Positions 6,684 through 59,175 of a stretch of 60,642 nucleotides of DNA are shown here, piece by piece. Each line of letters opens with the position of its first letter. Position 1 is the first letter of the stretch. The notes beneath the pieces were generated by a model. That model saw only the letters and a program-made list of their open reading frames with translations. It did no database searches and had not been told where the DNA came from. A program made the translations under genes and the position numbers. Source of the DNA: Bacteroidaceae bacterium (lineage in GTDB: Bacteria; Bacteroidota; Bacteroidia; Bacteroidales; Bacteroidaceae); contig JAFYNL010000066.1 of the NCBI GenBank assembly GCA_017548075.1, positions 1 to 60,642 on the forward strand. The letters are read 5' to 3'.

Positions 6684-6869
6684 ACCTATAGGTAATTCCT
6701 CAAAGACCTTAAGGTAAATCGCCTGAGACCTATAGGTAATTCCTCAAAGACCTTAAGGTAAATCGCCTGAGACCTTAAGGTAATTTCCCAACGACTCACA
6801 GTTAAAATCCAAACTTAACACGTTACGATGGCCAACATCACGTGTGAAGTTGCCCAACTTCACTAGGGT
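6684..6869. repeat. 22-bp phased palindrome array A (nine units)
   Basis: Cores start at 6684, 6706, 6728, 6750, 6772, 6794, 6816, 6838 and 6860, every 22 bp without exception. Cores are ACCTATAGGT or ACCTTAAGGT (first five), a degenerate one at 6794, then TAACACGTTA, TCACGTGTGA and a degenerate TCACTAGGGT. Linkers are 12 nt. Three different palindrome types share one phase. The array ends about 60 bp before the -7 box of the CDF gene, so it may act as an operator or as a structural element. Confidence 0.85.
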
Positions 6870-6931
6870 CGTTTGAAAACACTCTGCAGATGTTTTTTCT
6901 GGGAAGCGAGACAAGTTTGTGAAAAAAGTTG

Positions 6932-6939
6932 TAAATTTG
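6932..6939 (+). promoter_or_regulatory. -7 box for the CDF transporter gene
   Basis: TAAATTTG lies 23 nt before the ATG at 6963. A TTTG at 6916-6919 is too close (12 nt) to be a normal -33 box. Confidence 0.5.
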
Positions 6940-6962
6940 CGAGCGATATGCAGTAATCGTCA

Positions 6963-7856
6963 ATGGAAAGGAGCAAAGAAATCTGTAGAGTGACGCTGTG
7001 GGGTGGGGTGATGAACGCCTTGCTCGTGGCGTTCAAGTTCGTGGCTGGCATCATGGGGCACAGTGCCGCTATGGTGGCCGATGCCGTGCATTCGCTCTCG
7101 GATTTCGTGACGGACATCATCGTCCTCGCTTTCGTCCATATCAGTGGCAAACCCAAGGACAGTTCGCACGACTACGGGCATGGGAAGTTCGAGACTTTGG
7201 CTATGACCTTCATCGGCTTCGCCTTGCTGGTTGTGGCGATTGGAATCGTCTATGAGGGACTGATGAAGATTTCTGCTTGGGCAAGCGGCGAGCAGTTGAA
7301 GGCTCCGGGCTTGCTTGCGCTTTGGGCGGCTCTCCTCTCAATCGTCATCAAGGAAGCGACTTTCCGCTATTCTATCAGGAAGTCGAGGGAACTGGATTCG
7401 CAAGCGCTGGAGGCCAATGCCTGGCACCACAGGAGCGATGCGCTATCCTCGATTGGAACGGCTCTGGGCATCGGCGGAGCCATCTTCTTGGGGCAGAAAT
7501 GGGCTGTGCTCGACCCCGTGGCTTCGGTCATCGTGGGTCTCTTTATTGTGAAAGTGGCCGTAGAACTGCTGAGGAACGGCTTTGGAGACCTCACCGAACA
7601 GTCGCTTCCAGATGATGTGGAGCAGGAAATCTTGCAGTTGGCAGGTTCCGTTCCAGGAGTTGTGGAGCCTCACGACCTTCGGACTCGCCGCATAGGCAAC
7701 CACTATGCCATCGAGTTGCACATCCTCATGGACGGCAACATCTCCCTCCTGGAAGCTCACGACAGGGCTTCGGAGGTGGAGGACTTGCTAAGGAAACAAT
7801 ATGGCGAGGAGACGCACGTGGTGGTGCACGTGGAGCCTATTTCTCAACCCACTTAA
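6963..7856 (+). CDS. Cation diffusion facilitator (CDF) metal exporter
   Basis: An inner-membrane metal/proton antiporter of the FieF/ZitB type, 297 residues. Six membrane segments can be traced between residues 12 and 195. The metal-site motifs are present: ADAVHSLSDFVTD in helix 2 and HHRSDALSS in helix 5. The C-terminal 90 residues form the cytoplasmic dimer domain (ELHILMDGNISLLEAHDRASEVE, HVVVHVEP). The metal is likely Zn2+, Fe2+ or Mn2+, but the sequence alone does not decide. Its 3' end overlaps the end of the convergent oxidoreductase gene by 20 bp. Confidence 0.92.
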   Translation: MERSKEICRVTLWGGVMNALLVAFKFVAGIMGHSAAMVADAVHSLSDFVTDIIVLAFVHISGKPKDSSHDYGHGKFETLAMTFIGFALLVVAIGIVYEGLMKISAWASGEQLKAPGLLALWAALLSIVIKEATFRYSIRKSRELDSQALEANAWHHRSDALSSIGTALGIGGAIFLGQKWAVLDPVASVIVGLFIVKVAVELLRNGFGDLTEQSLPDDVEQEILQLAGSVPGVVEPHDLRTRRIGNHYAIELHILMDGNISLLEAHDRASEVEDLLRKQYGEETHVVVHVEPISQPT

Positions 7857-9003
7857 CCCACTTCCCTTCTTTGTTGTAGCCTGAAGCGACCATCGTCTCG
7901 ATGAATTGAAGGCCGCGAACGCCGTCATAGACATTCGGGAAGTCCAGATATTCAGGTCGAGGTGTCTCTCCTGCAGCTTTGGCGCGAACGGTCTTGGCGA
8001 AGTTGCGATAGATGTTGGCAAAGGCCTCGATGTAGCCTTCGGGATGACCGCCAGGGACGCGTGTGTTCCATTTTGCCAGAGAACCCATGTACCCGTTGCC
8101 TGTGCGAATGATTTCTGCAGGCTTGTCGCTCCATCGAGCTATCACAGTATTGGGTTCCATCTGATGCCATTCGAAGCCGCCCTTCTCGCCATAAACACGA
8201 ATAGCCAGGCGGTTCTCTTCTCCCGCAGCAATCTGAGTGGCATGGAGCACACCTTTGACGCCATTTGTATAATGCAGGAAAGCCGCGGCATCGTCGTCGA
8301 TGGGGCGTCCCTCGACAAAGGCATTGAGTTCGGCACAAAGCTCTGTAACCTTCTCTCCTGTTATGTATTCCGAGAGATGCCAGGCATGTGTGCCGATGTC
8401 GCCCACACAACCTCCCTTGCCCGACTGACTGGGGTCGGTTCGCCAACCTGCGTTGTTGCCGCCCTCCAACTCGATGCGACGGGAGAGCCAGCCTTGCGTA
8501 TATTCCACATAAACGCGACGAAGCTTGCCGAGTTGCCCTTCTGCGATGCGCGTCTTCATCTCCTTTACGGCAGGATAGCCTGAGTAGGTATGGGTCAAGG
8601 CAAGCGTGAGGCGCGTCTCCTCTACCTTTTTCTGAAGCTTCAAAGCCTCCTCTAAAGAGAAGGTCATGGGTTTGTCGAGCACGACGTCGAAGCCCTTGTC
8701 GAGCGCCAAAGCAGCTTGTTCGTAGTGAACCTTATTGGGTGTGACGATGGCGACGAAGTCCATGCGCTCTCCTTTAGGCAGCAGCGCTTCCTTCTCCAGC
8801 ATTTCCTTGTAGTCGTGATAGATGCGCTCTTCGGGCACGAACCAAGCCTTTCCTGTGGCCAAAGACGTCTGATAGTTGCGGCTAAAGCAACCGCACACAA
8901 GTTCGATATCATTCTCCATCAATGCTGCTCGCAGATGGATGGGGCCAATCATGGCGTTTCCACCGCCGCCAATCATGCCCATTCTAAGCTTTCTTTCTGT
9001 CAT
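7837..9003 (-). CDS. Gfo/Idh/MocA family oxidoreductase
   Basis: An NAD(P)-dependent sugar or polyol dehydrogenase of about 388 residues. The N-terminal Rossmann fold shows MGMIGGGGNAMIG, then VVLDKPMTFS (the EKP-type catalytic lysine motif) and GGCVGDIGTHAWHLSEYI (catalytic Asp and His region). The start used here is ATG at 9003, which places MTERKLRMGMIGGG at the N terminus. An upstream in-frame ATG at 9033 overlaps the stop of the isomerase gene as ATGA and would add ten residues; that start would allow translational coupling and remains possible. It forms an operon with the TIM-barrel isomerase upstream, a common pairing in carbohydrate or inositol-type catabolism. No signal peptide was seen. 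Confidence 0.88.
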   Translation of the reverse strand: MTERKLRMGMIGGGGNAMIGPIHLRAALMENDIELVCGCFSRNYQTSLATGKAWFVPEERIYHDYKEMLEKEALLPKGERMDFVAIVTPNKVHYEQAALALDKGFDVVLDKPMTFSLEEALKLQKKVEETRLTLALTHTYSGYPAVKEMKTRIAEGQLGKLRRVYVEYTQGWLSRRIELEGGNNAGWRTDPSQSGKGGCVGDIGTHAWHLSEYITGEKVTELCAELNAFVEGRPIDDDAAAFLHYTNGVKGVLHATQIAAGEENRLAIRVYGEKGGFEWHQMEPNTVIARWSDKPAEIIRTGNGYMGSLAKWNTRVPGGHPEGYIEAFANIYRNFAKTVRAKAAGETPRPEYLDFPNVYDGVRGLQFIETMVASGYNKEGKWVKWVEK

Positions 9004-9029
9004 GATATAATGTTTTAGTCTGTTGTCTT

Positions 9030-10025
9030 TCATGATTTGATTGCTGCGTCGAACTTGATGTCAGAGGGTTTGAAATCTATCTTGCGGACAAACTCGCAGG
9101 CCTCTCTGGCACCATATTCTCTGTCCATTCCCGAGTCCTCCCATTCAACAGAGAGCGGGCCTTCGTAGTTGTAGGCATTCAGCACGCGGATAATCTCCTC
9201 GAAGTTGACGTCGCCATGACCTAAAGAGCGGAAGTTCCAGCCTCGATGTATGTTCCCAAAGTCAAGGTGCGAGCAGAGGAGACCATTGCGACCATTCAGC
9301 GTCACGGCACAATCCTTCATGTGAACATGATAGACGCGATCGATGAAGTCCTCAAGGAAAAGGTGAGGCGAGATGCCTTGCCATTGCAGGTGGCTCGGGT
9401 CGAAGTTGAGTCCGAACTCTGGCCAATCCTTGAACTTCTCGAGCAAGCGCTTGGTAGTATAATAGTCGAAAGCAATCTCGGCAGGATGCACCTCGAGGCA
9501 ATACTTGATGCCGTTCTCGCGGAAGACCTGCAGGATGGGAGTCCAAAGGTCGTATATCTCTTGGAAGCCGCGCTCTATCATCTCTTCGGTTGTCTGTGGG
9601 AAGGAGTACATGTACTTCCAGATAGTCGACCCAACGAAGCCGGTCACGCAATAGGCACCAAGCTTGCGGGCAGCAATGGCCGTTGCCTTCATCGTCTTGA
9701 TTGCCCATGCTCTTATGCCATCGGGGTTGTCGGCCAGTTCTGCAGGAGCGAAGTTGTTGAGGCGAGGGTCGTTGTAGTCTCCTACGCATTGGCTCGGCAC
9801 ATGTGAGCAAAGTGCTTTCACAACAAGGCCGTGCTTCTTGAAGATAGCCTTTATTTCCTCAACATAAGCATCATCCTCGGCTGCCCGAATAGGATTCAGA
9901 TGGTTGCCCCAAGTGGCAAGTTCGATGCCGTCGTAGCCCATCCCGGCTGCCTTGCCGCACAGGGTGTCCAAGTCCATGTCTGCCCATTGACAGCTCATCA
10001 GCGTAACTAATCTGCCTTTTCTCAT
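9030..10025 (-). CDS. Sugar phosphate isomerase/epimerase-like TIM-barrel protein
   Basis: A 331-residue member of the xylose isomerase-like (AP endonuclease 2) fold. Visible metal/active-site segments are CLEVHPAEIAFDYY, FGLNFDPSHLQW, VYHVHMKDC and PLSVEWEDSG, which hold the conserved Glu/His/Asp ligands. No signal peptide is present, so it is cytosolic. Its stop overlaps the upstream alternative start of the Gfo/Idh/MocA gene (ATGA), which supports one transcript. The two enzymes probably act in sequence on an oxidised sugar or inositol intermediate, but the substrate cannot be read from the sequence. Confidence 0.88.
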   Translation of the reverse strand: MRKGRLVTLMSCQWADMDLDTLCGKAAGMGYDGIELATWGNHLNPIRAAEDDAYVEEIKAIFKKHGLVVKALCSHVPSQCVGDYNDPRLNNFAPAELADNPDGIRAWAIKTMKATAIAARKLGAYCVTGFVGSTIWKYMYSFPQTTEEMIERGFQEIYDLWTPILQVFRENGIKYCLEVHPAEIAFDYYTTKRLLEKFKDWPEFGLNFDPSHLQWQGISPHLFLEDFIDRVYHVHMKDCAVTLNGRNGLLCSHLDFGNIHRGWNFRSLGHGDVNFEEIIRVLNAYNYEGPLSVEWEDSGMDREYGAREACEFVRKIDFKPSDIKFDAAIKS

Positions 10026-10076
10026 GATTCTTTAAATTATATGGTTGGTATTGATTCTTTCGTCCCTTTTCTTCTG

Positions 10077-10084
10077 CAAAGATA
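10077..10084 (-). promoter_or_regulatory. -7 box for the isomerase/oxidoreductase operon
   Basis: TATCTTTG on the minus strand, about 52 nt before the ATG at 10025. The region upstream is a heptamer repeat instead of a clear -33 box. Confidence 0.5.
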
Positions 10085-10090
10085 TAAAAA

Positions 10091-10120
10091 AGATTAGAGA
10101 TTAGAGATTAAGGATTAGAG
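10091..10120. repeat. Heptamer tandem repeat (GATTAGR-type)
   Basis: About four tandem copies of a 7-nt unit, GATTAGA with GATTAAG variants. It separates the two divergent promoters (10077-10084 minus, 10129-10136 plus) and replaces the usual -33 region of both. Confidence 0.75.
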
Positions 10121-10128
10121 TTTTTTTG

Positions 10129-10136
10129 TAATTTTG
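10129..10136 (+). promoter_or_regulatory. -7 box for the M28 peptidase gene
   Basis: TAATTTTG, 28 nt before the ATG at 10165. No TTTG is present at the -33 distance, where the heptamer repeat lies. Confidence 0.5.
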
Positions 10137-10164
10137 CAGTCGGAAATAATGAATTTGAGAAAAT

Positions 10165-11418
10165 ATGAGAAAGCTTTTGATAGTCCTGTTGGCTTTTGGC
10201 TTACAGGCAAGTGCGCAGAATATGGCGCTTTACAAGAAGGTGATAAAGGAGATAAGTTCTGCAAAGTATCAAGGTCGCGGTTATGCGAAGGGTGGAGCCA
10301 ACAAAGCTGGTAAGTTCCTTGCAAAGGAATATAAGAAAGCAGGCGTGGATGAAGTTGTTTGTCAGCCTTTTACGCTCGACATCCAGACCTTTGCAGGCAA
10401 GATGGATATGTGGGCTGATGGCAAGAAACTGACGGCTGGAGTGGACTTCTCGATGCGCGAGTATTCGCCTGGAGTCAAGGGAGAGTTCCCTGTCTATCAT
10501 GTCGATACCCTCAATTTCGATGCCGACAAGATGTTTGCCGACCTCGCAAAACCAGAGTACAAGAACTGTCTTGTGGCTTGCGAGTTCTGGTTTACCTACA
10601 AGCATCGCGAGGCTTTCTCTCGGCTGCAGAAGGCTGGCGAGTGCCAGAATGCAGGTCTCATCTTCACTTGGGAGTCGCCCATCAAGTTCTTCAAGGCCTA
10701 CGGCCACAGAGTTGTGGATAAGCCAATCGTTTGGGTTACGCCAGAAGCCATTGCTGGAGTAAAGCGCGTCAAGCTGAATGTGGACGCGAAGTTCCTGAAG
10801 GATTACGAGTGCTTTAATGTGATTGCAAAGGTCGAGGGACAAAAGCATGACAGTTGTTATGTTTTTACAGCTCATTATGACCACCTTGGCAACCTCGGCA
10901 AGAAGGTCTTCTATGCTGGAGCCAACGACAATGCTTCCGGCACAGCCACGCTTGTCACGCTTGCCGAGTATTATGCGAAGAACCGTCCAGAATATGATAT
11001 GTATTTCCTTGCTGTCTCAGGAGAAGATGCCAATTTGCGTGGCTCGACCTACTTTGTGGAGCATCCGACTTTCCCTCTCGAACAGATTAAGTATCTCTTC
11101 AACATCGACATGATTGGCGACAATAGCCCTGTTCAATATTGCGAGGTGAGCGACGAGGGCATGAAGGCTTTTCCTCTTTTCGAAAAGATAAATAAGGAGA
11201 AGCAGTATTTCAAGTCTCTCAATCGAGGTGCTCTTGCTGCAAATAGCGACCATTATGTGTTTGCAGTTCGTCATGTGCCTTGCATCTTCCTTGAGAACGA
11301 GAAGGGCGATGCCTTCCAATATTACCACACTATCTTCGATAACTGGGAGCATGTGGTTACTGATAGTTATGAGCCGGTCTTCCGTCTTGTCCGTGACTTC
11401 ATAGAAGAATACAAATAA
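10165..11418 (+). CDS. Secreted M28 family zinc aminopeptidase
   Basis: A 417-residue exported zinc peptidase. Residues 1-18 are a signal peptide (MRKLLIVLLAFGLQASAQ). The M28 signature is complete: TAHYDHLG (zinc His and Asp), GANDNASGTATLV (bridging Asp), SGEDANLRGS (catalytic Glu position), FNIDMIGDN (zinc Asp) and NSDHYVF (last zinc His). A protease-associated-like insert lies before the catalytic core. The catalytic Glu motif reads GED where many relatives have GEE. It probably trims peptides in the periplasm. A hairpin at 11438-11459 follows the stop and may end the transcript. Confidence 0.9.
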   Translation: MRKLLIVLLAFGLQASAQNMALYKKVIKEISSAKYQGRGYAKGGANKAGKFLAKEYKKAGVDEVVCQPFTLDIQTFAGKMDMWADGKKLTAGVDFSMREYSPGVKGEFPVYHVDTLNFDADKMFADLAKPEYKNCLVACEFWFTYKHREAFSRLQKAGECQNAGLIFTWESPIKFFKAYGHRVVDKPIVWVTPEAIAGVKRVKLNVDAKFLKDYECFNVIAKVEGQKHDSCYVFTAHYDHLGNLGKKVFYAGANDNASGTATLVTLAEYYAKNRPEYDMYFLAVSGEDANLRGSTYFVEHPTFPLEQIKYLFNIDMIGDNSPVQYCEVSDEGMKAFPLFEKINKEKQYFKSLNRGALAANSDHYVFAVRHVPCIFLENEKGDAFQYYHTIFDNWEHVVTDSYEPVFRLVRDFIEEYK

Positions 11419-22433: not shown

Positions 22434-24779
22434 ATGAAACAACATCTTTTGTCGTTCCTCCTGATGATGCTTGGGGCTTTGCAGATGCAGGCTACCGACG
22501 TCATCTACGGCAATTGCCACTATCGTGAGATAGAAGGACGTTATGCAGGCGTTCGTAAGACCGAGAGTTCTACGACTTTCGAGACGGACGACCGCATCAT
22601 TCTCGTTTATTGTCTTCGCATTCCTCGTGCCACAGTGTCTGGCTCGGCAAAGTTGAGGTCAAAGGTAACAGGTGACATTACGCTTAACGTTCGTGTCAAG
22701 AACTGTGAGACTGATGCCGTCCTTCTTGAGCATAGTGTCACTGAAGCTTGCACCAGAGGCGAGACTGCAGACTTGGAGATTATTCCAGAAATGAACTTCC
22801 CTGCCGATACTTGGTATCGTGTGGAGATTCAAGCTCCTAATGGTTATAATCGTATTCAAAGTCTTATTGAGCTTGATTTCGAACGTTCAGGCAGCCTACC
22901 CGTTGTCGATGCTCATCTGCGAGGCTTCCCAACGCCTGCCACACACCTCTGGTTTGGACATTCTTCCGCTTCGGGCGCTCCTCAGAACGAATCGTATGAA
23001 TGGTGCTATCAGGAAGTGCTCATGCCTAAAGAGTGGGCAACCATCAACACTTACCTCATGACGCTTGGCATCACTGGGGGATACATGGGCATACAGATGT
23101 GTGGACAGACGGTACGGAACGAGAATGGTCAGGAAACCGACACGATCCCTTCGTCTTATCAGCATCGCGTCCTCTTTTCCATTTGGGACAATGGCGATAC
23201 AGACATTACACCCGACCTGGCGACCTACCTTAGAGCAGGCGCTTTGGCTTCTGGTGATGATGTGACTATCAATCGCTTTGGCAACGAAGGAACTGGATGT
23301 CAGTCAATGGTGTACAATGGTAAGTGGGAGCCCGGGCAGTGGGTACAGTTCCTGACCTGCGCACGTCCGGAGGAACGAACCATTGTATTGAAGGATGAGA
23401 GCGGTAACGAGGACATCATCCGCTATCCATGCTCTCTGCTTTCCACTTGGTACAAGAATCTTGATGATCCGGAGTGGCACTATATGGCTACTATTCGTCA
23501 CAGTGGCGAGTCGCACTACTACAACACATGGTACTCCTTCATCGAGAACTGGGCGGACACTGGTGGCGAGCTTTTCCGTAGAGCATATTATCGCAACAAC
23601 TACCAGCGAAGTGTGGGTAGCGGAAAGTGGTACTTCGTCAACAAGGTGGATCTCTTCAGCCAGACCACCTATCAGAACTTCATCGACGATGGTGAGATAA
23701 CCAAACGCCACGTTCGAAAAGACTATGGCCACGGGCGTGCAAGCGACGTGCCTCGAGCCTTTTTTATGCAGACTGGTGGCTACGGTCAACCCAAAGATTC
23801 TGCAAGTACATTGCCTCTTGTCACAGACCACAGTTGCGTGGAGAGCATTAATCTCGACTCACTCATCGCAACCTTGCAGACCGCTTATTTGGCCGATTCT
23901 AAGGCTTCGATGACCACTCTCATAAAAACTCGGACTAATCTTGCCAAACTCAAACCATTTGTGGAAGAACTTCTCGCAAAGGCCAATCGTTTCGAGGGTT
24001 ATACAAGTGAAGCCTTGGAGCCTATTCGTGAGCTTGCCGCAACGGAATACAAGTATTCAGAGATGCGTAAGGCATTGCTCGAAATGGCAGGAAAGAACGT
24101 GACGTTGCGCTACGGAAACACGATAAAAGCCGATCACATTTGTTCCTTCCGAGCTTATATGATAGGTACGGGAGAAGACATTCTTGCAGTGCGCGACCAT
24201 CAGGTTGTCAGCATTCCTCAGGCTGAGGCCGACGTTACCGACCCGAACAACCATTGGATTGTCCTGCGTCACGATAACCAGACATACTATTGTCTCTACA
24301 ATCTTGGCACAGGTTTTTATCTCTCCATCGGTAGCAGAATCACATTAGATGATGTTCCTCACAAGATAAATTTCAATTCTTACAGCGGAGAGTTTACACT
24401 TCGTGAAGGCAGTAGCGCATATATTGGCTTCAATTCCTCGAAAGAGCCAGTAGTCGTCCAATCCAATAAAGCAGCACGCTTCGAATTGCTCGACAACTAC
24501 TATCTCACGCCTCAGACCTCGCTTGTGGAAACCTTGCTTATGGAAACGGATCCAGAAGGCATTGGCACAGGAATTGACGAGATAGAGCCAGTTCTTCCCT
24601 TTGGTGAGGATTGGAGTGAGGCAGAAGGAGCTTCTTTGGCAAACGATATTGTAGGCGTTTATTACTACGACCTTCAAGGCCGCCGCATCGGCTACGCTTT
24701 GCCAGCAGGAGAACCCGTCATCGCTCACATTATCCTCCGCAACGGAGCCTCAATTGTAAGGAAGATTGTAGCGAAGTAA
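22434..24779 (+). CDS. Secreted DUF3472 protein with C-terminal sorting-like tail
   Basis: A 781-residue exported protein of unknown function. Residues 1-20 are a signal peptide (ending LQMQA). Residues 25-160 look like the carbohydrate-binding-type domain that precedes DUF3472. The DUF3472 region spans about 165-430 (TGGYMGIQMCG, VLFSIWDNGD, YNGKWEPGQWVQF). Residues 480-560 are helical. The end, YYDLQGRRIGYALPAGEPV then VRKIVAK, resembles C-terminal sorting or anchoring tails of Bacteroidales secreted proteins and is echoed by the CotH-like protein at 53306. It sits 12 bp after a cytosolic acyl-CoA dehydrogenase, an unexpected pairing, and ends at a terminator. Confidence 0.82.
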   Translation: MKQHLLSFLLMMLGALQMQATDVIYGNCHYREIEGRYAGVRKTESSTTFETDDRIILVYCLRIPRATVSGSAKLRSKVTGDITLNVRVKNCETDAVLLEHSVTEACTRGETADLEIIPEMNFPADTWYRVEIQAPNGYNRIQSLIELDFERSGSLPVVDAHLRGFPTPATHLWFGHSSASGAPQNESYEWCYQEVLMPKEWATINTYLMTLGITGGYMGIQMCGQTVRNENGQETDTIPSSYQHRVLFSIWDNGDTDITPDLATYLRAGALASGDDVTINRFGNEGTGCQSMVYNGKWEPGQWVQFLTCARPEERTIVLKDESGNEDIIRYPCSLLSTWYKNLDDPEWHYMATIRHSGESHYYNTWYSFIENWADTGGELFRRAYYRNNYQRSVGSGKWYFVNKVDLFSQTTYQNFIDDGEITKRHVRKDYGHGRASDVPRAFFMQTGGYGQPKDSASTLPLVTDHSCVESINLDSLIATLQTAYLADSKASMTTLIKTRTNLAKLKPFVEELLAKANRFEGYTSEALEPIRELAATEYKYSEMRKALLEMAGKNVTLRYGNTIKADHICSFRAYMIGTGEDILAVRDHQVVSIPQAEADVTDPNNHWIVLRHDNQTYYCLYNLGTGFYLSIGSRITLDDVPHKINFNSYSGEFTLREGSSAYIGFNSSKEPVVVQSNKAARFELLDNYYLTPQTSLVETLLMETDPEGIGTGIDEIEPVLPFGEDWSEAEGASLANDIVGVYYYDLQGRRIGYALPAGEPVIAHIILRNGASIVRKIVAK

Positions 24780-24840: not shown

Positions 24841-24960
24841 CTCCATGGGTAGTTTGCAAACTTAACGTGTTATGTTGGCCATCTTAACGTGTTAAGTTTA
24901 CAAAGTTAACGTGTTACGTTTGCAATCATAACTGGCGTCAATTAAAAACGTAACCGTTTG
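24841..24960. repeat. 22-bp phased palindrome array B
   Basis: Three identical cores TAACGTGTTA start at 24863, 24885 and 24907. Degenerate cores keep the phase at 24841 (CTCCATGGGT), 24929 (TAACTGGCGT) and 24951 (TAACCGTTTG). Linkers are 12 nt; one of them, AGTTTGCAAACT, is a perfect palindrome. The array fills the gap between two convergent stops. Confidence 0.85.
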
Positions 24961-35552: not shown

Positions 35553-35606
35553 CTCCACGTTACGATGCCAATCATAACACGTTATGTTGCCCGTCATAAC
35601 ACGTTA
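35553..35606. repeat. 22-bp phased palindrome array C
   Basis: TAACACGTTA at 35575 and 35597, and a half-decayed CTCCACGTTA at 35553, all 22 bp apart. It sits between the rpoD terminator and the gltX stop. The core centre is AC, the reverse of arrays B and E. Confidence 0.8.
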
Positions 35607-35621: not shown

Positions 35622-37187
35622 CTACCCGAGGGTTTCGATGGCGAAGCGCATGCGACTCAGGGTCTCGTCCTTGCCGAGGAAGGCTGCCAGTTCGTACATG
35701 TCGGGACCTTGTCCTTCGCCTACAAGACAGATGCGCCATGCGTTCCAGGGCTTGATGCCGGTCTGCTCCGACCAAGCATCGACGGCGGCTTTCTGACCCT
35801 CGACTGAGAAGTCGTCCAAACCTGCAAGCAAATCGGCGAGTCGCTGCATCTCTTTCGCAGTCTCTTCCCGCCAGTTCTTGCGGACGAATTTGTCCTCTTT
35901 GTCGAACCCAGTCGGAGCGACGAAGAAGAAGCGCGTCAAAGGCCAAAGGTCGCTCACGAAACTGATGTTGCGCTTGTGCTTTTGCCCTTGTCCGTCGGTG
36001 TATTCGATGACTTTGAGCTTCATCATGCGGACCACTTCGGCCTCCTTTTCGGGAGTCGAGACGATGCCCTGCTCGCGAAGGACTTTGTCGAACGAGGGAA
36101 CCCAAGCTTCGTCGGGCTGCTGAAGAAGGTACTGATGGTTGAACCAAGCCGCTTTGATGTAGTCGAACTTCGCGCCGTTCTTGGAGCATTTGCTGAGGTC
36201 GAAAAGACGGACCATCTCGTCGAGGCTCATGACCTCTTGGTCGTTACCCGGATTCCAGCCAAGCAGAGCAAGGAAATTGACGACGGCTTCGGGCAGATAA
36301 CCCTTCTCGCGATAGCCGCTGCTCACCTCTCCGCTCTTCGGATCGTGCCATTCAAGCGGGAAGACAGGGAAGCCCAGCTTGTCGCCGTCGCGTTTGCTCA
36401 ACTTGCCGTTACCAACGGGTTTGAGCAAGAGAGGCAAGTGAGCGAATCGGGGCATTGTGTCGGCCCAACCGAAAGCTTCGTAGAGAAGGACATGAAGAGG
36501 AGCGCTCGGCAACCATTCTTCGCCTCGAATCACATGCGTGACTTCCATCAAATGGTCGTCCACAATGTTGGCGAGATGGTAGGTCGGAAGCTCGTCGGCA
36601 CTCTTGTAGAGCACCTTGTCGTCGAGGATGCTACTGTTGATGCGAACCTCTCCGCGAATGATGTCGTCCACAATCACATCCCTTCCGGGCTCGATGAGGA
36701 AGCGAACCACATACTGCTTGCCTTCGGCAATAAGGTTTTCGACCTCTTCTTTGCTCAAAGTCAAGGAGTTACGCATCTGCAAACGTGTGCTTGCATCGTA
36801 CTGGAAGTTCTCTATTTCAGCGCGTTTTGCATCGAGTTCCTCGGGGGTATCGAAAGCGATATAGGCCTTTCCGTTGTCGAGGAGTTGCTGAACATATTTC
36901 TTATAGATGTCGCGACGCTCGCTCTGGCGATAAGGTCCGTGCTCGCCACCAAAGCTCACACCCTCGTCGAACTTGATTCCCAGCCACTTGAACGACTCGA
37001 TGATATATTCCTCGGCTCCAGGTACGAAACGCGTGGAGTCGGTATCTTCGATGCGGAAAATCAGGTCGCCGCCATGTTGCTTGGCGAAAAGGTAGTTGTA
37101 GAGGGCAGTACGAACACCGCCGATATGAAGCGGTCCGGTTGGGCTTGGAGCGAAACGAACGCGTACTTTTTTCAGTTCAGAGTTCAT
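35622..37187 (-). CDS. gltX: Glutamyl-tRNA synthetase
   Basis: It charges tRNA-Glu. It has 521 residues from ATG 37187. Class I motifs are [22 protein letters not shown] (quoted in part: [10 protein letters not shown]) and [10 protein letters not shown] (KMSKS equivalent). The frame extends to 37298 but crosses the promoter, so the start giving [16 protein letters not shown] is used. The start codon lies in a heptamer repeat (37174-37208). It is divergent from the pgpH-like gene with a short shared control region. Confidence 0.95.
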
Positions 37188-37208
37188 AGTTATGAGTTCA
37201 TAGTTATA
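37174..37208. repeat. Heptamer repeat over the gltX start
   Basis: Five tandem 7-nt units (AGTTCAG, AGTTCAT, AGTTATG, AGTTCAT, AGTTATA). The second unit carries the gltX start codon on the minus strand; the fourth repeats it 14 nt upstream, out of frame. Confidence 0.7.
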
Positions 37209-37217
37209 TTTTCCGTG

Positions 37218-37225
37218 CAAAAGTA
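37218..37225 (-). promoter_or_regulatory. -7 box for gltX
   Basis: TACTTTTG on the minus strand, 31 nt before the ATG. The -33 region is occupied by the TTGAACA heptamers. Confidence 0.55.
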
Positions 37226-37235
37226 CAAAAAATAA

Positions 37236-37262
37236 TTGAACATTGAACATTGAACATTGAAC
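37236..37262. repeat. Heptamer repeat (TTGAACA)
   Basis: Three full copies of TTGAACA and a fourth lacking its last base. It lies between the two divergent -7 boxes (37218-37225 minus, 37270-37277 plus), in the place of both -33 boxes. Confidence 0.8.
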
Positions 37263-37269
37263 TTTTTTG

Positions 37270-37277
37270 TATCTTTG
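37270..37277 (+). promoter_or_regulatory. -7 box for the pgpH-like gene
   Basis: TATCTTTG, 50 nt before the ATG at 37327. Confidence 0.55.
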
Positions 37278-37292
37278 CGCTGAAAACCAATT

Positions 37293-37320
37293 CTTCACTC
37301 TTCATTCTTCACTCTTCACT
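37293..37320. repeat. Heptamer repeat (CTTCACT) in the pgpH leader
   Basis: Four tandem 7-nt units, CTTCACT or CTTCATT, directly before the ATG at 37327. They fall in the transcribed leader. Confidence 0.75.
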
Positions 37321-45360: not shown

Positions 45361-46035
45361 TCATAATGGGATGTAACGGGTTGTGGTATCTACGAGGTAT
45401 TCTTCTTGATAGGCGGACTCCACTTGCTTGTGGATGATTTTGTTCACCAAGTCCTTGATGCGCTCGTCGGCTTGCATGAGGTTTCCAAGTTCAGCCAGGC
45501 AAGTACTATCTCGGCAGTCGCCCATCTGATTCTCGAGTTGCGTGAGATAGTAGTAAAGACTGTCCGCAGCATTTGCAAGAACGGGTGTTTCAGTCGAGGC
45601 TTGTGGTTCGTCGGCAATCGTAGGCAGGGATGATTTCAAACGACGCGTGTGAAGTTGCCCAACTTCACGTGTGATGTTTGCCAACTTCACGTGTGAAGTT
45701 TGCGATTTAACCATGTGATCTTTTTCGACGACCTTGGGTGTGTCTTCCTGAGGAGCTATTTCTTCCGTCTTTTCAGCAAGTTGAGGTTGGCTTTCCGACT
45801 TGAAGTTTTTCCAGGTGAAGAGTGCCACAACTGCAATCAGAACTGCGGCTATTGCCAGAAGAGTCCTTCCAATCGTCCTCGTGAAGCGAGAAGTCTGTTT
45901 CTTCTCGGCATTCAGAGCGTCGAAGAGCGCTTCGTCTCTGTCGAGTTCTTCGGCAGTTGGGAGTTCCCACTTCTTTCCCTCAATTGGGTGCTTGCCCTGC
46001 AGATATTCGTCTATGAGTAGTTTTTTATCCATCAA
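45361..46035 (-). CDS. Anti-sigma-like single-pass membrane protein
   Basis: A 224-residue protein encoded right after an ECF sigma factor, overlapping it by 11 bp. The N-terminal 50 residues are acidic and cytosolic (DEYLQGKHPIEGKKWELPTAEE), followed by one membrane helix (TLLAIAAVLIAVVALFTW, near residues 58-75), the layout of an anti-sigma factor. The outer part includes a segment encoded by a 22-bp palindrome array (45643-45718), read as SHVKLANITREVGQLHTRR. The array's period of three units equals 66 nt, so the frame is kept. Anti-sigma function is inferred from position and topology only. Confidence 0.7.
   Translation of the reverse strand: MMDKKLLIDEYLQGKHPIEGKKWELPTAEELDRDEALFDALNAEKKQTSRFTRTIGRTLLAIAAVLIAVVALFTWKNFKSESQPQLAEKTEEIAPQEDTPKVVEKDHMVKSQTSHVKLANITREVGQLHTRRLKSSLPTIADEPQASTETPVLANAADSLYYYLTQLENQMGDCRDSTCLAELGNLMQADERIKDLVNKIIHKQVESAYQEEYLVDTTTRYIPL
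45643..45718. repeat. 22-bp phased palindrome array D, inside a coding sequence
   Basis: TCACGTGTGA cores at 45665 and 45687 with degenerate cores in phase at 45643 (ACGCGTGTGA) and 45709 (AACCATGTGA). The stretch around 45650-45670 repeats a 20-odd-bp segment of array A (6843-6863) exactly. Confidence 0.82.
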
Positions 46036-46558
46036 TAAACCCTCCTTCTTTTAATACATTATATATATGGTGTCGAGCGTGACTGAGCATCGAACTGACT
46101 GTCCGAACGTTGATTCCCGTTACGAGAGCTATTTCTCGTGGCTGCATTTCTGCTTCTGCGAACATTCGCCAAAGCCGCCTTTCGGACTTTCGGAGCGTGC
46201 TTGCTGCCTGTCGAATGGCTTCCACGAGTTCGTTTTCTTCCATAGAATGGTCTTCGTTCGAGGCAGGATGTGTCTGTTCCTGACTGATTGTGAGCGAAGA
46301 GTGAGGTCGCCTCTGCTCCCTTCTCCAAACGTCGATGCACTCGTGCTTAGCAACCTTGACGACCAGTCTCTCTGCCTCTTCCCTTGAAGATAGCGAGCCC
46401 CAAGCCTTCCAGAGGCTTATAACGGTCTCCTGCGCAACATCTTCGGCTTGCTCTTCCGAAGTGAAGAAACTCATGCCGATGGCTTTCGCCTTTGAGCGCA
46501 AAATGGGTGCCAGGCGTTCGAAGCTTATGCTCGACGAAGTCAACTCTGTGTGCTCCAT
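46025..46558 (-). CDS. ECF-type RNA polymerase sigma factor
   Basis: A 177-residue extracytoplasmic-function sigma factor with only regions 2 and 4. Region 2 shows ILRSKAKAIGMSFFTSEEQAEDVAQETVISLWKAW; part of this, EEQAEDVAQETV, is the typical core-binding stretch. Region 4 has MQPREIALVTGINVRTVSSMLSHAR (helix-turn-helix). Its stop overlaps the start of the anti-sigma-like gene. It probably directs expression of its own operon and perhaps of the barrel gene downstream; targets cannot be read here. Confidence 0.9.
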   Translation of the reverse strand: MEHTELTSSSISFERLAPILRSKAKAIGMSFFTSEEQAEDVAQETVISLWKAWGSLSSREEAERLVVKVAKHECIDVWRREQRRPHSSLTISQEQTHPASNEDHSMEENELVEAIRQAASTLRKSERRLWRMFAEAEMQPREIALVTGINVRTVSSMLSHARHHIYNVLKEGGFIDG

Positions 46559-46821: not shown

Positions 46822-46851
46822 GGATTAGGGATTAGGGATTAGAGATTAGGG
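46822..46851. repeat. Heptamer repeat (GATTAGG)
   Basis: Four tandem 7-nt units, GATTAGG or GATTAGA, between tRNA-Leu and the fasciclin lipoprotein gene. Confidence 0.8.
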
Positions 46852-53183: not shown

Positions 53184-53186
53184 ACG

Positions 53187-53279
53187 TCCCCAGTGTCGTT
53201 GCCAAACTTAACGTGTTATGTTGGCAAAGTTAACGTGTTACGATTGCAAACTTAACGTGTTACGTTTGGATTTTAACTG
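53187..53279. repeat. 22-bp phased palindrome array E
   Basis: TAACGTGTTA cores at 53209, 53231 and 53253, and a degenerate TCCCCAGTGT in phase at 53187. The last partial unit (TAACTG at 53274) is one base out of phase. It fills the gap between two co-directional genes. Confidence 0.85.
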
Positions 53280-55498: not shown

Positions 55499-56316
55499 AA
55501 ATAATTGAAGTTACATCGCTAACTGCCTCAGGACTTGAGGTTTACGGGACGCTAACCGAAGCGCAACTGCGTAACAGACTCGAGCCGGAGAAAGGCGTCT
55601 TCATTGCAGAAAGCCCGAAAGTGATAAGTGTTGCGCTCGATGCGGGCCTCGAACCTCTTTCTCTCCTCTGCGAACACAAGCATATCGAGGGCGATGCAAA
55701 GGCTATCATTGAACGTTGCCCTGCTGAAATGCCCATTTATACCGGCAGTCGCGAACTCTTGGCACAGCTTACGGGCTATACTCTGACTCGTGGCGTTCTA
55801 TGTGCAATGCGGCGTCCAAAGCCACTTTCGCCAGAAGAAGTTTGCAAGGAAGCTCGTCGAATTGTCGTTCTTCACGGCGTTGTCGATACCACAAACGTGG
55901 GCGCAATCTTCCGTTCGGCTGCGGCTCTCGGCATAGATGCCCTGTTGATGACGCGAGATTCCTGCGATCCGTTGAATAGAAGGGCAGTTCGCGTCTCGAT
56001 GGGAAGCGTTTTCCTTGTGCCTTGGACTTGGCTCGATTCGGAAGACGGAACACCCGTCGGCACCATTCATAAACTGAAGGAAATGGGCTTTACGACTGCT
56101 GCGATGGCTCTCAGGAAGGATGATGTCAACATCGACGACCCGAAACTCAAACAGACAGAACGGCTCGCCCTCATTATGGGGACTGAAGGCGACGGGCTTC
56201 CCGAAGCAATTATTGATGTCTCAGACCTTGTTGTGAAGATTCCCATGCATCATGGCGTCGATAGCCTGAACGTGGGAAATGCCGCTGCAATTGCTTTCTG
56301 GGAGTTGGCCCATTAA
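55495..56316 (+). CDS. TrmH/SpoU-family RNA 2'-O-methyltransferase
   Basis: A 273-residue SPOUT methyltransferase that methylates a ribose in tRNA or rRNA using SAM. Motifs: TTNVGAIFRSAAALGID (motif 1), LIMGTEGDGLP (motif 2) and VKIPMHHGVDSLNVGNAAAIAFWEL (core: SLNVGNAAAIAFWE, motif 3, SAM knot). Residues 1-100 form the RNA-binding domain. Its start overlaps the CotH stop (ATGA), so translation is coupled to an unrelated exported protein. The exact RNA target is not readable. Confidence 0.9.
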   Translation: MKIIEVTSLTASGLEVYGTLTEAQLRNRLEPEKGVFIAESPKVISVALDAGLEPLSLLCEHKHIEGDAKAIIERCPAEMPIYTGSRELLAQLTGYTLTRGVLCAMRRPKPLSPEEVCKEARRIVVLHGVVDTTNVGAIFRSAAALGIDALLMTRDSCDPLNRRAVRVSMGSVFLVPWTWLDSEDGTPVGTIHKLKEMGFTTAAMALRKDDVNIDDPKLKQTERLALIMGTEGDGLPEAIIDVSDLVVKIPMHHGVDSLNVGNAAAIAFWELAH

Positions 56317-56321
56317 GGTTT

Positions 56322-58112
56322 CTACATATCGTACCTCAAGTTCTCCCAGTCTGTTTCTTGGTCGAGCTGAGCCATGAAGTCATCGAGCACAGCCTGATCA
56401 ATATCGCCAAGTTCGAACTCTTTTAGTGCGTCTTTGCGAATCTCGGCAATCCAAGCACGACGGGCTTGCACATAATCTTCGTGAACTCGTGCAGCCGTTT
56501 CCTCTGTTATCTCGTCGATTCCGTAGTACTCACAAATGAGTCGATAGCTCCAAGCCCAGCGATATTCGGCATAGTTCTCGTTGGCCTGCACGAACTCTTC
56601 GCGGATGTCATGAATGTTATCAAGCGTTCCGTCCTTAATAGCGGCAACGATTCTTTGCTCTTCAGTCAGGGGAATGAGCAAACCGCTCAAGTCGCTCCAT
56701 TTGCCCGTACCTACCGATGAAATCGGGCGTTCCAAGCGATGGCGCTTCATGACTGCACCCATATAAATGCGAAGAGCGATGTCGTAGTACTTGATGCCCT
56801 TTTTGAGCGAGGAATTCTTGATGACATAATCGTGGAAGTTATAAGTCTCCACATCGCCAGAAACCTCTCTTAAAGCCTCGAGAGTCCGTTTTGCGACCAT
56901 AATTCCGCCTACCGAGAAAGGGGAGAGCCAGTCGAAGTTGACGATGGAGTTCTTGCCTCTATTGTGCCTCTTATCACGTTTCGGCCACTTGCGGATGTCG
57001 CGATAAAGCCCCACAGTAGTGAGGTTTCGGCCAGGCACAAGATACATATCGTCGCCATAAGCAATGAGGTATGAGAAGGGCAGTTTGCGTGTGTCGGGAT
57101 GGTGCATGAGCTTTCCGAAGCAGACACTGAAGGTGCCAATCTGTGCAGGCATCAGGATGTAACCTCCGCTGGCAGTCTTCGTGCCCCTTTCCAGCACGCC
57201 CCAATGCATCGGGCCCATCTTGTAGGCGTGGTTCGAGAAGTTGGTTCCAGAGCCCGCATTATAGAAGGAAAACATACCTCCGATGAGGAGCGAACTCTTA
57301 TGATGCGAGGCAGAGAAAGGACCGCAAAACGCCGCGCAAGCCTCGCCATTACTCATATAGCAGTTGGCAAAGAAAAGGCTGTTTTCCGCAGTAAAGCCGT
57401 CGGTAATCTTGCAGGCTTCCCCTACAAAGCAGTTCTCCAGTTTAGAAGCGTTTGTGATGCTCGAACCATTATATATTACAGAGTTCTGACAAATGACGCC
57501 AACCCCGATGGTAACGGCTGCTCCGGGTATGCTCTTGAGTGTGCAGTCGCGGAGGCGGAACGCTCCATCTATGATGCAACCGTTGCTAATGTGGCAGTTT
57601 GTAATGTCGTGAACAGAGATGATTCGCACATCATTGCCGATGGTCGTGACCGTCAGGCTGTGTTCTACGATGCTCTTCCTGACGAGCTCTCGTACAATTT
57701 CCGTGAACTCTTTGTCCTGCTCGTACTTGACCATGAGCGAAGCAAGCTGGGAGTTAAGGCCGTCGAAAATCATGACATTTCCGTCGCCTACTTCGTTGAG
57801 GACGGAGATAATGTGCCCTTCGCCAAAAGATGCATCGGGAGTGGTGTTGATGCAGTCAACGTCTTCAATGAAACAATCGTCACCAATGATGCAATTTCGC
57901 AAGGTAGCCCTACGGATGCCGCTGTGCTTCGTAAAGCCTTCGCTCAGTTCTATCGTCTTGTGAAACGCTCCAAGCGTCACCTCTCCATAGAAGTCCGTGT
58001 GATGAACATAGTCGCTGCAGAAATCGTCTGCCACATTGATATCCTGCCAATTCTCTGCCGTGCAACCCTGAGCTTCGAGGGCTGCCACTTCGCTCTCATT
58101 AAGTTTCCTCAT
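56322..58112 (-). CDS. DUF4954 protein with left-handed beta-helix
   Basis: A 596-residue cytosolic protein matching the Bacteroidetes DUF4954 group. Residues 60-270 form hexapeptide-type repeats (TLRNCIIGDDCFIEDVDCI, CHISNGCIIDGAFRLRDCTL, VICQNSVIYNGSSI), i.e. a left-handed beta-helix as in acyl- and nucleotidyl-transferases. The C-terminal 200 residues are helical. No active-site motif was recognised, so enzymatic activity is open. It is a single gene with its own promoter and is convergent with the trmH-like gene (5 bp apart). Confidence 0.82.
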   Translation of the reverse strand: MRKLNESEVAALEAQGCTAENWQDINVADDFCSDYVHHTDFYGEVTLGAFHKTIELSEGFTKHSGIRRATLRNCIIGDDCFIEDVDCINTTPDASFGEGHIISVLNEVGDGNVMIFDGLNSQLASLMVKYEQDKEFTEIVRELVRKSIVEHSLTVTTIGNDVRIISVHDITNCHISNGCIIDGAFRLRDCTLKSIPGAAVTIGVGVICQNSVIYNGSSITNASKLENCFVGEACKITDGFTAENSLFFANCYMSNGEACAAFCGPFSASHHKSSLLIGGMFSFYNAGSGTNFSNHAYKMGPMHWGVLERGTKTASGGYILMPAQIGTFSVCFGKLMHHPDTRKLPFSYLIAYGDDMYLVPGRNLTTVGLYRDIRKWPKRDKRHNRGKNSIVNFDWLSPFSVGGIMVAKRTLEALREVSGDVETYNFHDYVIKNSSLKKGIKYYDIALRIYMGAVMKRHRLERPISSVGTGKWSDLSGLLIPLTEEQRIVAAIKDGTLDNIHDIREEFVQANENYAEYRWAWSYRLICEYYGIDEITEETAARVHEDYVQARRAWIAEIRKDALKEFELGDIDQAVLDDFMAQLDQETDWENLRYDM

Positions 58113-58150
58113 AAACCAATCTTTTTACCTACCTAAGTGCTATCAGAGTG

Positions 58151-58158
58151 CAAAAGTA
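58151..58158 (-). promoter_or_regulatory. -7 box for the DUF4954 gene
   Basis: TACTTTTG on the minus strand, 39 nt before the ATG at 58112. Confidence 0.55.
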
Positions 58159-58170
58159 CGAATTTTATTT

Positions 58171-58197
58171 GGATTAGGGATTAGAGATTAGGGATTA
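58171..58197. repeat. Heptamer repeat (GATTAGG)
   Basis: About three and a half 7-nt units (GATTAGG, GATTAGA) between two divergent -7 boxes, as at 10091-10120. Confidence 0.75.
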
Positions 58198-58202
58198 TTT
58201 CG

Positions 58203-58210
58203 TACCTTTG
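58203..58210 (+). promoter_or_regulatory. -7 box for queD-queE
   Basis: TACCTTTG, 17 nt before the ATG at 58227. No preQ1 riboswitch is visible in this short leader. Confidence 0.55.
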
Positions 58211-58226
58211 CAAAAACTTTCAGATT

Positions 58227-58559
58227 ATGTACTACATAAGCAAGAGATTAGTAATATCGGCCAGCCATCGTTTGGAGCTGTCCTATCCCAGCAAATGCAG
58301 CCAGTTGCATGGACACAATTGGACCATCACGGTTCATTGCAAGGCCAAGGAACTCAATCAGGACGGAATGGTCATCGACTTCAAACTCATCAAGCAGAAG
58401 ATAGAGTCGCAACTCGACCATGCAAACCTCAACGAAGTGCTTCCCTGCAACCCGACTGCCGAGAACATCGCCAAGTGGATATGCGACCAACTGCCTGAGT
58501 GCTACCGCGTTGACGTGCAGGAGAGTGAGGGCAATATGGCAACGTACGAAGAGGAATGA
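58227..58559 (+). CDS. queD: 6-carboxy-tetrahydropterin synthase
   Basis: The second step of queuosine/7-deazaguanine synthesis: it makes 6-carboxytetrahydropterin from dihydroneopterin triphosphate. Its 110 residues are normal for the family. Zinc ligands are His in ISASHRLEL and the two in HGHNW; the Cys four residues before HGH (CSQLHGH) is the catalytic one; LDHANLNE carries the conserved Asp-His. It overlaps queE by 4 bp (ATGA). Confidence 0.94.
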   Translation: MYYISKRLVISASHRLELSYPSKCSQLHGHNWTITVHCKAKELNQDGMVIDFKLIKQKIESQLDHANLNEVLPCNPTAENIAKWICDQLPECYRVDVQESEGNMATYEEE

Positions 58560-59119
58560 GAGTAAACGAGACGTTTCTTTCTTTGCAGGGTGAGGGGCAT
58601 TTCACTGGCACGCCTGCCTTTTTCCTTCGTTTTGCGGGATGCAACCTCGAGTGTCCTTTCTGCGACACCAATCATCAGACTTATCACGAGATGAGCGAGG
58701 AGGAAATTGTCGAGGAGGCAAGCCGCTATAAGCCTCGTCACATTGTCATTACAGGCGGCGAACCAGCCTTGCAACTCACGCAGTCGCTTGTCGATAAACT
58801 CCACGAAGCGGGCTTCTTCATTCAGGTCGAGACTAACGGCACCATGCCTCTGCCAGAGCGAATTGACTGGGTGACGTGCTCGCCGAAAGGAACTCCCGTT
58901 CTAAAGGATGTTGACGAATTGAAGGTGCTCTTCAAAGGCGATGGTACAGATTTGAGTATTGCTGACCATATTCAGGCGAAAGAATATCGTCTTCAGCCCC
59001 TCGATACCGGCAATGAGGAGCAGAATCGCATCATCCTTCGCGCCACAATCGCTTATGTTCTGGAGCATCCCAGGTGGTCGCTCTCCCTGCAAACCCACAA
59101 GATGCTGGGGATTAAGTGA
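58556..59119 (+). CDS. queE: 7-carboxy-7-deazaguanine synthase (radical SAM)
   Basis: A radical SAM enzyme that converts the queD product into CDG in queuosine synthesis. The cluster motif CNLECPFC is CX3CX2C, as expected for QueE; FFLRFAGC precedes it and VITGGEPALQ is the SAM-binding GGEP motif. Length, 187 residues, is at the short end of the family, as in Bacteroidetes. Other queuosine genes (queC, queF, tgt) are outside the window. Array F begins 25 bp after the stop. Confidence 0.94.
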   Translation: MRVNETFLSLQGEGHFTGTPAFFLRFAGCNLECPFCDTNHQTYHEMSEEEIVEEASRYKPRHIVITGGEPALQLTQSLVDKLHEAGFFIQVETNGTMPLPERIDWVTCSPKGTPVLKDVDELKVLFKGDGTDLSIADHIQAKEYRLQPLDTGNEEQNRIILRATIAYVLEHPRWSLSLQTHKMLGIK

Positions 59120-59143
59120 CGCGGGCAGATTGGAAGGCAAACT

Positions 59144-59175
59144 TGACGTGTTTCGTGGCCACTTTTAACACGTGT
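59144..59175. repeat. 22-bp phased palindrome array F (two units)
   Basis: TGACGTGTTT at 59144 and TAACACGTGT at 59166, 22 bp apart, with the linker CGTGGCCACTTT whose centre GTGGCCAC is a palindrome. Both cores are slightly decayed. Confidence 0.65.

Follow-up and report, generated by a model that had tools for sequence, protein, structure and literature searches.

Dispersed palindrome arrays with an exact 22-bp period and clade-specific core dialects in gut and rumen Bacteroidales

What are the rows of short palindromes that recur through a 60,642-nt stretch of a Bacteroidaceae bacterium genome (assembly GCA_017548075.1, contig JAFYNL010000066.1; hereafter the window), and what could keep them in an exact 22-bp phase? 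Each array consists of 10-bp inverted repeats (cores, with 4-nt arms and a 2-nt centre) joined by 12-nt linkers. We find a common architecture and period, placement mostly behind genes, spacing in the window's own genome that is more even than random placement yields, core spellings (dialects) that differ between sub-clades, sites that are shared between species, and core arms that are conserved above linkers. The reading that we favour, with about even confidence, is that these are phased duplex-DNA binding arrays for a putative clade-specific protein, placed like the bacterial interspersed mosaic elements (BIMEs) of E. coli and switching dialect. A full-text literature search found no title or abstract opening that describes 22-bp palindromic arrays in Bacteroidales.

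Period, copy number and unit anatomy

A first-pass annotation of the window, made from its letters alone, had proposed six arrays of one shared design. These arrays, to which no strand is assigned, and two genes needed to place them are as follows.

Array 1a, 6684..6781: five cores, ACCTATAGGT/ACCTTAAGGT, at period 22; a second core family
Array 1b, 6782..6869: edge core ACTCACAGTT, then TAACACGTTA, TCACGTGTGA and decayed TCACTAGGGT, in a 22-bp register common with array 1a
Array 2, 24841..24960: three TAACGTGTTA cores (24863-24916) with decaying edges in phase, flanked by convergent genes that end at 24779 and 24971
Array 3, 35553..35606: two TAACACGTTA cores and one decayed core behind gltX, the core closest to gltX beginning 15 nt past its stop codon
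gltX, 35622..37298, minus strand: glutamyl-tRNA synthetase gene, the register reference for array 3
Array 4, 45643..45718: ACGCGTGTGA, TCACGTGTGA, TCACGTGTGA, within the open reading frame (ORF) on the next line
ORF, 45361..46035, minus strand: 224 aa, TTG start
Array 5, 53187..53279: three TAACGTGTTA cores (53209-53262), flanked by tandem genes and separated by 25 nt from the upstream stop codon
Array 6, 59144..59175: two decayed cores, TGACGTGTTT and TAACACGTGT, with the 22-bp spacing, some 25 nt past the end of the radical SAM gene 58556-59119

Exact 10-bp inverted repeats with 4-nt arms formed 12 pairs spaced 22 bp apart in the window, against a mean of 1.1 and a maximum of 4 in 100 first-order Markov simulations, and no other period between 10 and 45 gave more than 6 pairs (period 44). 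The annotated arrays fully contain 11 of the 12 pairs; the twelfth, a linker pair at 6849 and 6871, extends 11 bp beyond array 1. The period is thus real, and arrays 1 to 5 are clear. The count of six holds less well, since array 6 has only half-decayed cores (two of four arm pairs each), correctly spaced. Array 1 also proved to mix two core families, the ACCTTAAGGT/ACCTATAGGT family (6684-6781) and TAAC/TCAC cores (6816-6869), within a single 22-bp register.

A scan of the window's own genome (G000; 2.66 Mb in 66 contigs, 88% complete) with the pattern GTTA-N12-TAACRYGTTA, allowing at most one mismatch, bore out the arrays at the scale of the chromosome: 480 forward and 486 reverse places were found, versus one and one for the reversed pattern used as control. 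Furthermore, a sequence-blind finder, which combines self-similarity at a given period with palindromic cores, returned 71 arrays at period 22 and none at 20, 21, 23 or 24 in a 788-kb sample of G000 (the window plus 39 stretches, non-random in that contigs were partly chosen for listed hits). In 505 kb of the relative G075 it returned 43 arrays at period 22 and 0, 2, 0 and 0 at the same neighbouring periods. Between neighbouring exact TAAC cores no more than 60 bp apart, all 110 of 110 steps in the 788-kb sample were 22 bp; between the CCGC cores that characterize G075 and G026, 89 of 101 steps were 22 bp, ten were 21 and two were 44.

Three cores were present in 47 of 75 TAAC arrays, with two in 18, four in nine and five in one. 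Beyond the outermost exact TAAC core, the 22-bp consensus decays over two to three units, and hybrid edge cores (for example ACTGCAGTTA or TAACTGCAGT) are common. The boundaries of CCGC arrays are sharper, with AAACG left of the first core in 28 of 38 arrays and CGTTT right of the last in 35 of 38. The two central bases of a core are almost never self-complementary; the centres of 192 TAAC cores were 89 AC, 79 GT, 10 AG, 7 TC, 3 GA, 2 CT, 1 AT and 1 AA, and those of 141 CCGC cores were 63 GT, 56 AC, 12 AG, 6 CT, 2 AT, 1 AA and 1 TG. Neighbouring cores were co-oriented more often than expected (0.75 versus 0.39 for TAAC, 0.70 versus 0.42 for CCGC).

The linkers, described at first as near-palindromic, proved quasi-palindromic only. 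Their halves are drawn from a small set in TAAC and CCGC arrays alike and avoid being identical: matching halves occurred across the core at 0.06 versus an expected 0.15 (TAAC) and 0.08 versus 0.25 (CCGC), and across the linker at 0.07 versus 0.15 and 0.01 versus 0.20. Moreover, the two inner linkers of each oriented array were less complementary to each other than permuted ones (P 0.0014 for TAAC, 0.005 for CCGC), and in TAAC arrays they were also less alike on direct comparison (0.587 versus 0.674); pairing within a linker was not reduced in TAAC arrays (P 0.75) and slightly reduced in CCGC arrays (P 0.02). The mismatched linker halves and the reduced complementarity of inner linkers together indicate that each array is made of direct repeats that have an orientation and an imperfect dyad, and that are not built to form hairpins. 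Compensatory maintenance of a hairpin was thus not seen in the linkers, yet the 4-nt arms do change jointly across dialects.

An element acting at the RNA level, either a terminator or an mRNA-stabilising hairpin, is in our view very improbable. It would fit the position behind stop codons, the folding z scores of -1.0 to -3.7 in nine stretches and the terminator-like edge of array 3 (minus strand), but no terminator-like site overlaps arrays 2, 4, 5 or 6, so that one of five scanned arrays in the window carries such a site and the annotation's statement that these are not terminators gains indirect support. The avoidance of complementarity by the inner linkers and the lack of a clear link between core-centre orientation and gene strand also speak against it, as does a separate hairpin found at gltX in species with and without the array. 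Known RNA families were rejected because Rfam at gathering scores matched only two tRNAs in the window, so that this part of a known-family check left the arrays without a match. The 12-nt linkers, coming from a small set, do not resemble CRISPR spacers.

Placement, spacing and core dialects

Genes were predicted with a codon-usage script that misses real genes (e.g. the sigma factor gene 46025-46558), and the following placement classes are therefore approximate. The 75 TAAC arrays comprised 36 in tandem, 26 in convergent and 9 in divergent intergenic regions; 3 more lay at stretch ends, and 1 extended 11 bp into a gene. For comparison, the sample contained 118 tandem, 36 convergent and 50 divergent intergenic regions with a length of 100 bp or above. 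Within the tandem class, including the overlapping array (n=37), 33 arrays lay nearer the upstream stop codon (median 56 versus 155 nt). The 30 CCGC arrays in 400 kb of G075 were distributed as 18 tandem, 8 convergent, 2 divergent and 2 overlapping.

An intergenic position does not hold for array 4, which has TCAC cores, is outside the 75-array count and lies inside the minus-strand ORF 45361-46035. This ORF had no match in a Pfam search and overlaps the end of the sigma-70-type factor gene (46025-46558, minus strand). Its orthologues in G035 and G079 contain exact period-22 palindrome pairs (37% identity and CAAC cores in G079); those in G005, G026, G023, G011 and G034 gave no exact pair by script, and decayed cores at 22-bp steps are visible by eye. 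The G034 orthologue (L301) carries extra repeated ACGCGACACGTC units, and the repeats therefore seem to have grown inside the reading frame there.

Spacing was assessed on six contigs, with array 4 added by hand and decayed and other-family arrays left uncounted. The 42 gaps between TAAC arrays had a mean of 9.8 kb, a coefficient of variation (CV) of 0.51 and a minimum of 3542 bp. Random intergenic placement with the same class counts gave a CV of 0.83, with 10.8 gaps shorter than 3.5 kb. Neither the observed minimum gap nor the observed number of gaps below 3.5 kb was matched in any of 5000 draws, and the P value for the CV was 0.0002. When the TAAC and CCGC arrays of G075 were pooled, 4 gaps fell under 3.5 kb versus 14.0 expected under uniform placement.

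Repetitive extragenic palindromic (REP) sequences and BIMEs are, according to PMC3733652, high-copy palindromic repeats, mostly intergenic and chiefly between tandem and convergent genes; the REPs of E. coli are also described as gyrase targets, and BIME-2 regions as containing gyrase cleavage sites. The arrays are likewise high-copy, palindromic, intergenic and mostly behind genes, and to this extent the annotation's suggestion of a REP-like element stands. They differ in lacking the GTAG/CGTC-tagged 20-40 bp hairpin design, in their exact 22-bp phase and over-dispersed spacing, in arms that vary among sister clades and in linkers that avoid hairpins, and their own genome gave no RAYT match. 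The extended gyrase motif of E. coli, as given in PMC6379681, is helix-phased, about 130 bp long and enriched downstream of transcribed operons, and resembles the arrays in size, phasing and downstream position. That motif is nevertheless a degenerate G/C periodicity of 10.75 bp and not a set of exact palindromes, and gyrase, as a conserved enzyme, would not explain TAAC versus CCGC.

The arrays extend well beyond one genome. Nearest among named relatives are metagenome genomes from gut and rumen, which are assigned to Bacteroidaceae, Prevotellaceae or Bacteroidales and include Candidatus Minthosoma caballi. A 92-nt composite query matched 13 of 61 genus-sample genomes and, among the genomes behind named loci, 2 of 18. 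The gltX tree comprises 29 rows, without G076, and 12 of its 26 inner forks are open; in it the carriers fall within one 12-species group and a sister trio (G077, G008 and G079).

Both the dialects described here and the even spacing had gone unforeseen in the first-pass annotation. In G075 and G026 the cores are spelled CCGC-NN-GCGG, with exact junctions numbering 356/366 and 391/404, whereas the other 59 genomes have at most 4 and G000 has none; in the gltX tree, these two species share an open fork with G005 (TAAC). The trio spells its cores CAAC-NN-GTTG (296/300 in G077, 172/176 in G008 and 187/195 in G079, with at most 1 in the other 58 genomes), a spelling for which we searched after it appeared in one G077 array and in the G079 coding array. 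TAAC and CCGC co-occur in G075 and G026. TAAC counts in the other carriers, excluding G075, G077 and G079, are modest (G005 39/38, G035 33/34, G011 28/25, G023 20/19, G026 7/7, G034 6/6), and such low-TAAC carriers may therefore use additional core spellings that went unrecognised. Other period-22 core families were found: CCCTATAGGG, GGACGCGTCC and TGCAATTGCA in G005, ACATGTATGT and GTTTTGAAAC in G075, and GACTCGAGTC in G035. In a more distant genome, a Roe deer reticulum bin (L068; gltX 76%), a AGGATATCCT array with four exact cores at 22 bp lies at 1727-1802, upstream of gltX. No period-22 arrays were found in 60-kb samples each of G086, G001, G016, G015 and G010.

The congruence of dialects with sub-clades recalls the DNA uptake sequence (DUS) dialects of Neisseriaceae, which according to PMC3630211 are genome-wide short motifs whose spelling follows the phylogeny. 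Arrays serving as marks for a competence machinery, with uptake dialects, nonetheless appear scarcely probable to us. Uptake sequences, according to the same source, are single short words, abundant as single copies and often within genes, whereas the motif found here is confined to phased rows: in the 788-kb sample, isolated TAACNNGTTA cores numbered 5 (3 intergenic) against 5.7 expected by chance, with 187 in array register.

Binding array or mobile repeat

Under the reading that we favour, each array would be a phased row of sites on double-stranded DNA, bound by a single sequence-specific protein (or by two related domains) belonging to a clade of rumen and gut Bacteroidales. One protein unit would occupy each 22-bp repeat, and the two helical turns would set all units on the same face. 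The core arms would be read symmetrically, and direction would come from the asymmetry of the centre (GT or AC) and from the difference between the linker halves. Three to five such units, whose edge cores are spelled differently, would form one nucleoprotein complex of about 100-150 bp. Such complexes, about 10 kb apart behind genes and between convergent genes, might serve chromosome organisation or respond to transcription-driven supercoiling, as proposed for the BIMEs of E. coli. The specificity of the protein may have shifted between sub-clades and the arrays followed, giving rise to the dialects. The protein, its binding mode, its topological role and the rewriting of sites are what we infer; the annotation's proposal of a phased protein-binding array gains indirect support from the exact period, from the conservation of arms above linkers and from the low complementarity of linkers.

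Evidence for shared sites came from orthologous gene ends. Behind gltX, a core stands in one register, 15 nt past the stop codon, in 7 of 12 clade species: G000, G075, G005, G035, G085, G012 (decayed) and G026 (CCGC). Among the orthologous 3'-end species pairs, arrays were detected on both sides in 60, on a single side in 92 and on neither in 143. The register modulo 22 agreed in 40 of the 60 two-sided pairs and was 1 off in 8, although pairs repeat loci. Counted by locus, with loci grouped by our own judgement of table rows, it agreed at 9 of 17 versus about 0.8 expected, and several of the remaining eight involve doubtful arrays. The agreeing loci are gltX, taken from the gltX side; G000 against L232, L233, L234, L213, L226 and L265; G075 against L255; and G005 against L261. 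A search for synteny by blastn against 400 kb of G075 yielded a single usable pair. Across eight same-register comparisons at five loci, four of which are gltX pairs and thus not independent, identical positions amounted to 164 of 192 in arms, 192 of 288 in linkers and 26 of 48 in centres. Spelling can differ at such sites: the counterpart of one G000 array is spelled TCAC in G035, and that of another is a CCCTATAGGG array in G005. Unit number can also change, as in a TGCAATTGCA array of G005 (L248, about 2000-2090) that has at least three units versus roughly one differently spelled unit in G035 (L261).

Several results weigh against the binding-array reading. No array was found behind gltX in the five other clade species (G023, G086, G019, G011 and G034), and presence was one-sided in 92 of the 152 orthologous 3'-end pairs that had any array. 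The stretch before the array was identical at 159 of 224 positions, not much below the arms. CCGC arrays in G075 were less evenly spaced (CV 0.70, P 0.10; minimum 3364 bp, P 0.003), and G026, a CCGC species, retains TAAC-like decayed cores in its coding array. At three loci CCGC faces TAAC: the registers coincide at gltX but differ by 4 at each of the remaining two. Since register is kept at only one of the three, in-place rewriting is not general; this makes a binding array less likely and a mobile repeat more likely. The bounded inverted ends of the CCGC arrays likewise suit a mobile element. The folding z scores given above count on the same side, and no binding protein emerged from searches for RAYT, ParB and Rep_3, ParB being single in 57 of 61 genomes, G000 included.

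The main rival, and a serious one, is a selfish repeat of REP/REPIN or miniature inverted-repeat transposable element (MITE) type, which we think distinctly less probable. Such non-autonomous repeats would have spread in successive waves (TAAC, CCGC, CAAC) by means of a putative copying enzyme and been tolerated behind genes, with even spacing arising from target immunity or from deletion between close copies. High copy number, one-sided presence, the shared inverted ends of most CCGC arrays, the two dialects side by side in G075 and G026 and the 4-bp register offset all favour it. Against it, TAAC sites and registers are kept between species at nine loci, linkers avoid hairpin pairing, and no target-site duplication signal was detected in 38 CCGC and 75 TAAC arrays. 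The best copies share 95-97% over only 60-100 bp, and nearly all pairwise matches end within about 50 bp of the array; in the absence of long near-identical copies, a recent copy burst was rejected. A RAYT-driven REP element was rejected as well: PF01797 matched 22 of 61 genomes but had no match in G000, and of the 14 array carriers only G012, G026, G034 and G076 have one, which limits the annotation's REP-like suggestion to copy number and position.

A parallel among Bacteroidales repeats is BrickBuilt of Porphyromonas gingivalis, described in PMC4596501 as a MITE minisatellite with a 23-nt unit in 19 copies and a leader and tail bearing IS5-like terminal inverted repeats; the paper also mentions 22-nt repeats in strain W83. 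The arrays resemble it as short tandem repeats in intergenic regions of a Bacteroidales chromosome, but they have a 22-bp unit, hundreds of copies and no shared leader or tail.

Carriage on known plasmids or viruses was also rejected. The 92-nt composite had no match in 72,556 plasmid records, and three exact TAAC cores occurred in no IMG/VR contig and three exact CCGC cores in one (IMGVR_UViG_3300028888_002997; L292). In that contig the three-core CCGC array lies at 4865-4918 near an ORF6N-domain gene and is probably host flank or prophage.

A candidate factor and the wider implications

Plasmid iterons, such as those bound by R6K pi and pPS10 RepA, are quasi-palindromic direct repeats of about 22 bp that present one helical face to their Rep initiators and form one cluster at an origin. 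These 22-bp repeats led us to search for Rep_3, one of three protein families tried together with ParB and RAYT. A ParB/Noc paralogue was rejected, since 57 of 61 genomes, including G000, have one ParB match (the exceptions being none in G033, two in G013 and G084, and three in G030). The Rep_3 search identified a protein of about 500 aa in G000 that matches Rep_3 (E 5e-7) and, below threshold, DnaA_N, and whose gene adjoins one of ParA type. Relatives at E<1e-10 were present in 10 of 14 array carriers (G000, G005, G008 as a fragment, G011, G023, G034, G075, G076, G077 and G079) versus 9 of 47 other genomes (G006, G007, G022, G031, G036, G068, G070, G071 and G074; Fisher P 0.0005). Most carriers form one clade and its sister trio, so that any clade gene would correlate, and this Fisher test overstates the association.

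We treat the Rep_3/DnaA_N protein as a candidate factor only, and rate as quite improbable the explanation that the arrays are of iteron type, each 22-bp unit being read by one monomer of a chromosomal Rep_3-family initiator (winged helices and a DnaA domain-I-like C-terminus) through two non-identical winged helices. In its favour are the likeness of the oriented, quasi-palindromic direct repeats to iterons, the G000 protein and its ParA-type neighbour, the distribution among carriers, and the presence of 22- and 24-bp repeats upstream of rep. These latter repeats are nevertheless of the GGTGCGA/TTCGCACC type, unlike the TAAC, CCGC and CAAC cores, and arrays occur in hundreds of dispersed rows, unlike the single iteron cluster. 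Furthermore, the carriers G012, G019, G026 and G035, whose genomes are incomplete, had no match at E<1e-10, the G000 and G079 proteins are only 35% identical, shared descent inflates the statistical association, and three families were tried.

The rep locus of G000 (L313, contig C29, about 6700-11013) holds the ParA-type gene, 24-bp GGTGCGA-type repeats and the Rep_3 initiator, which has a weak DnaA domain I match at its C-terminus; the locus resembles an origin of plasmid type residing in the chromosome. Both gene regions align in G075, G005, G011, G023, G034, G076, G068, G070 and G074. The finder detected no arrays at the rep loci of G068, G070 and G074, nor at those of the carriers G075, G011, G023, G034 and G076.

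Returning to the binding-array reading, a bolder form of it, which we consider unlikely, is a chromosome-wide lattice with docking sites about every 10 kb for a clade protein, possibly a domesticated iteron-binding initiator, whose code would have switched at least twice (TAAC, CCGC, CAAC) with hundreds of sites replaced in step. By analogy, and just as tentatively, such a lattice could be a bacterial counterpart of the drive between centromere proteins and satellite DNA. If the binding-array reading itself holds, an uncultured gut clade would possess regularly spaced, sequence-specific chromosome marks whose code differs among sisters while layout and phase are kept. Three dialects would then allow the cognate protein to be sought by co-variation and the replacement of hundreds of sites to be tested, and the system would offer a clean comparison with BIMEs on the purpose of repeats behind genes.

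Other repeats occur in the window. A dispersed repeat of about 250 bp with GATGAGTGACGAGTG motifs, which includes the ACCTTAAGGT array and is distinct from the TAAC arrays, links positions 6503-6752 to 2773-3024 of L048 at 85% identity. A short tandem repeat of 22-23 bp at 59335-59388 is of the TTTCAGCACC-CAATTG type and is unrelated in sequence to the arrays. Finally, a 7-bp repeat (AGATTAG/GGATTAG) forms three separate short runs at 10091-10120, 46822-46851 and 58171-58197.

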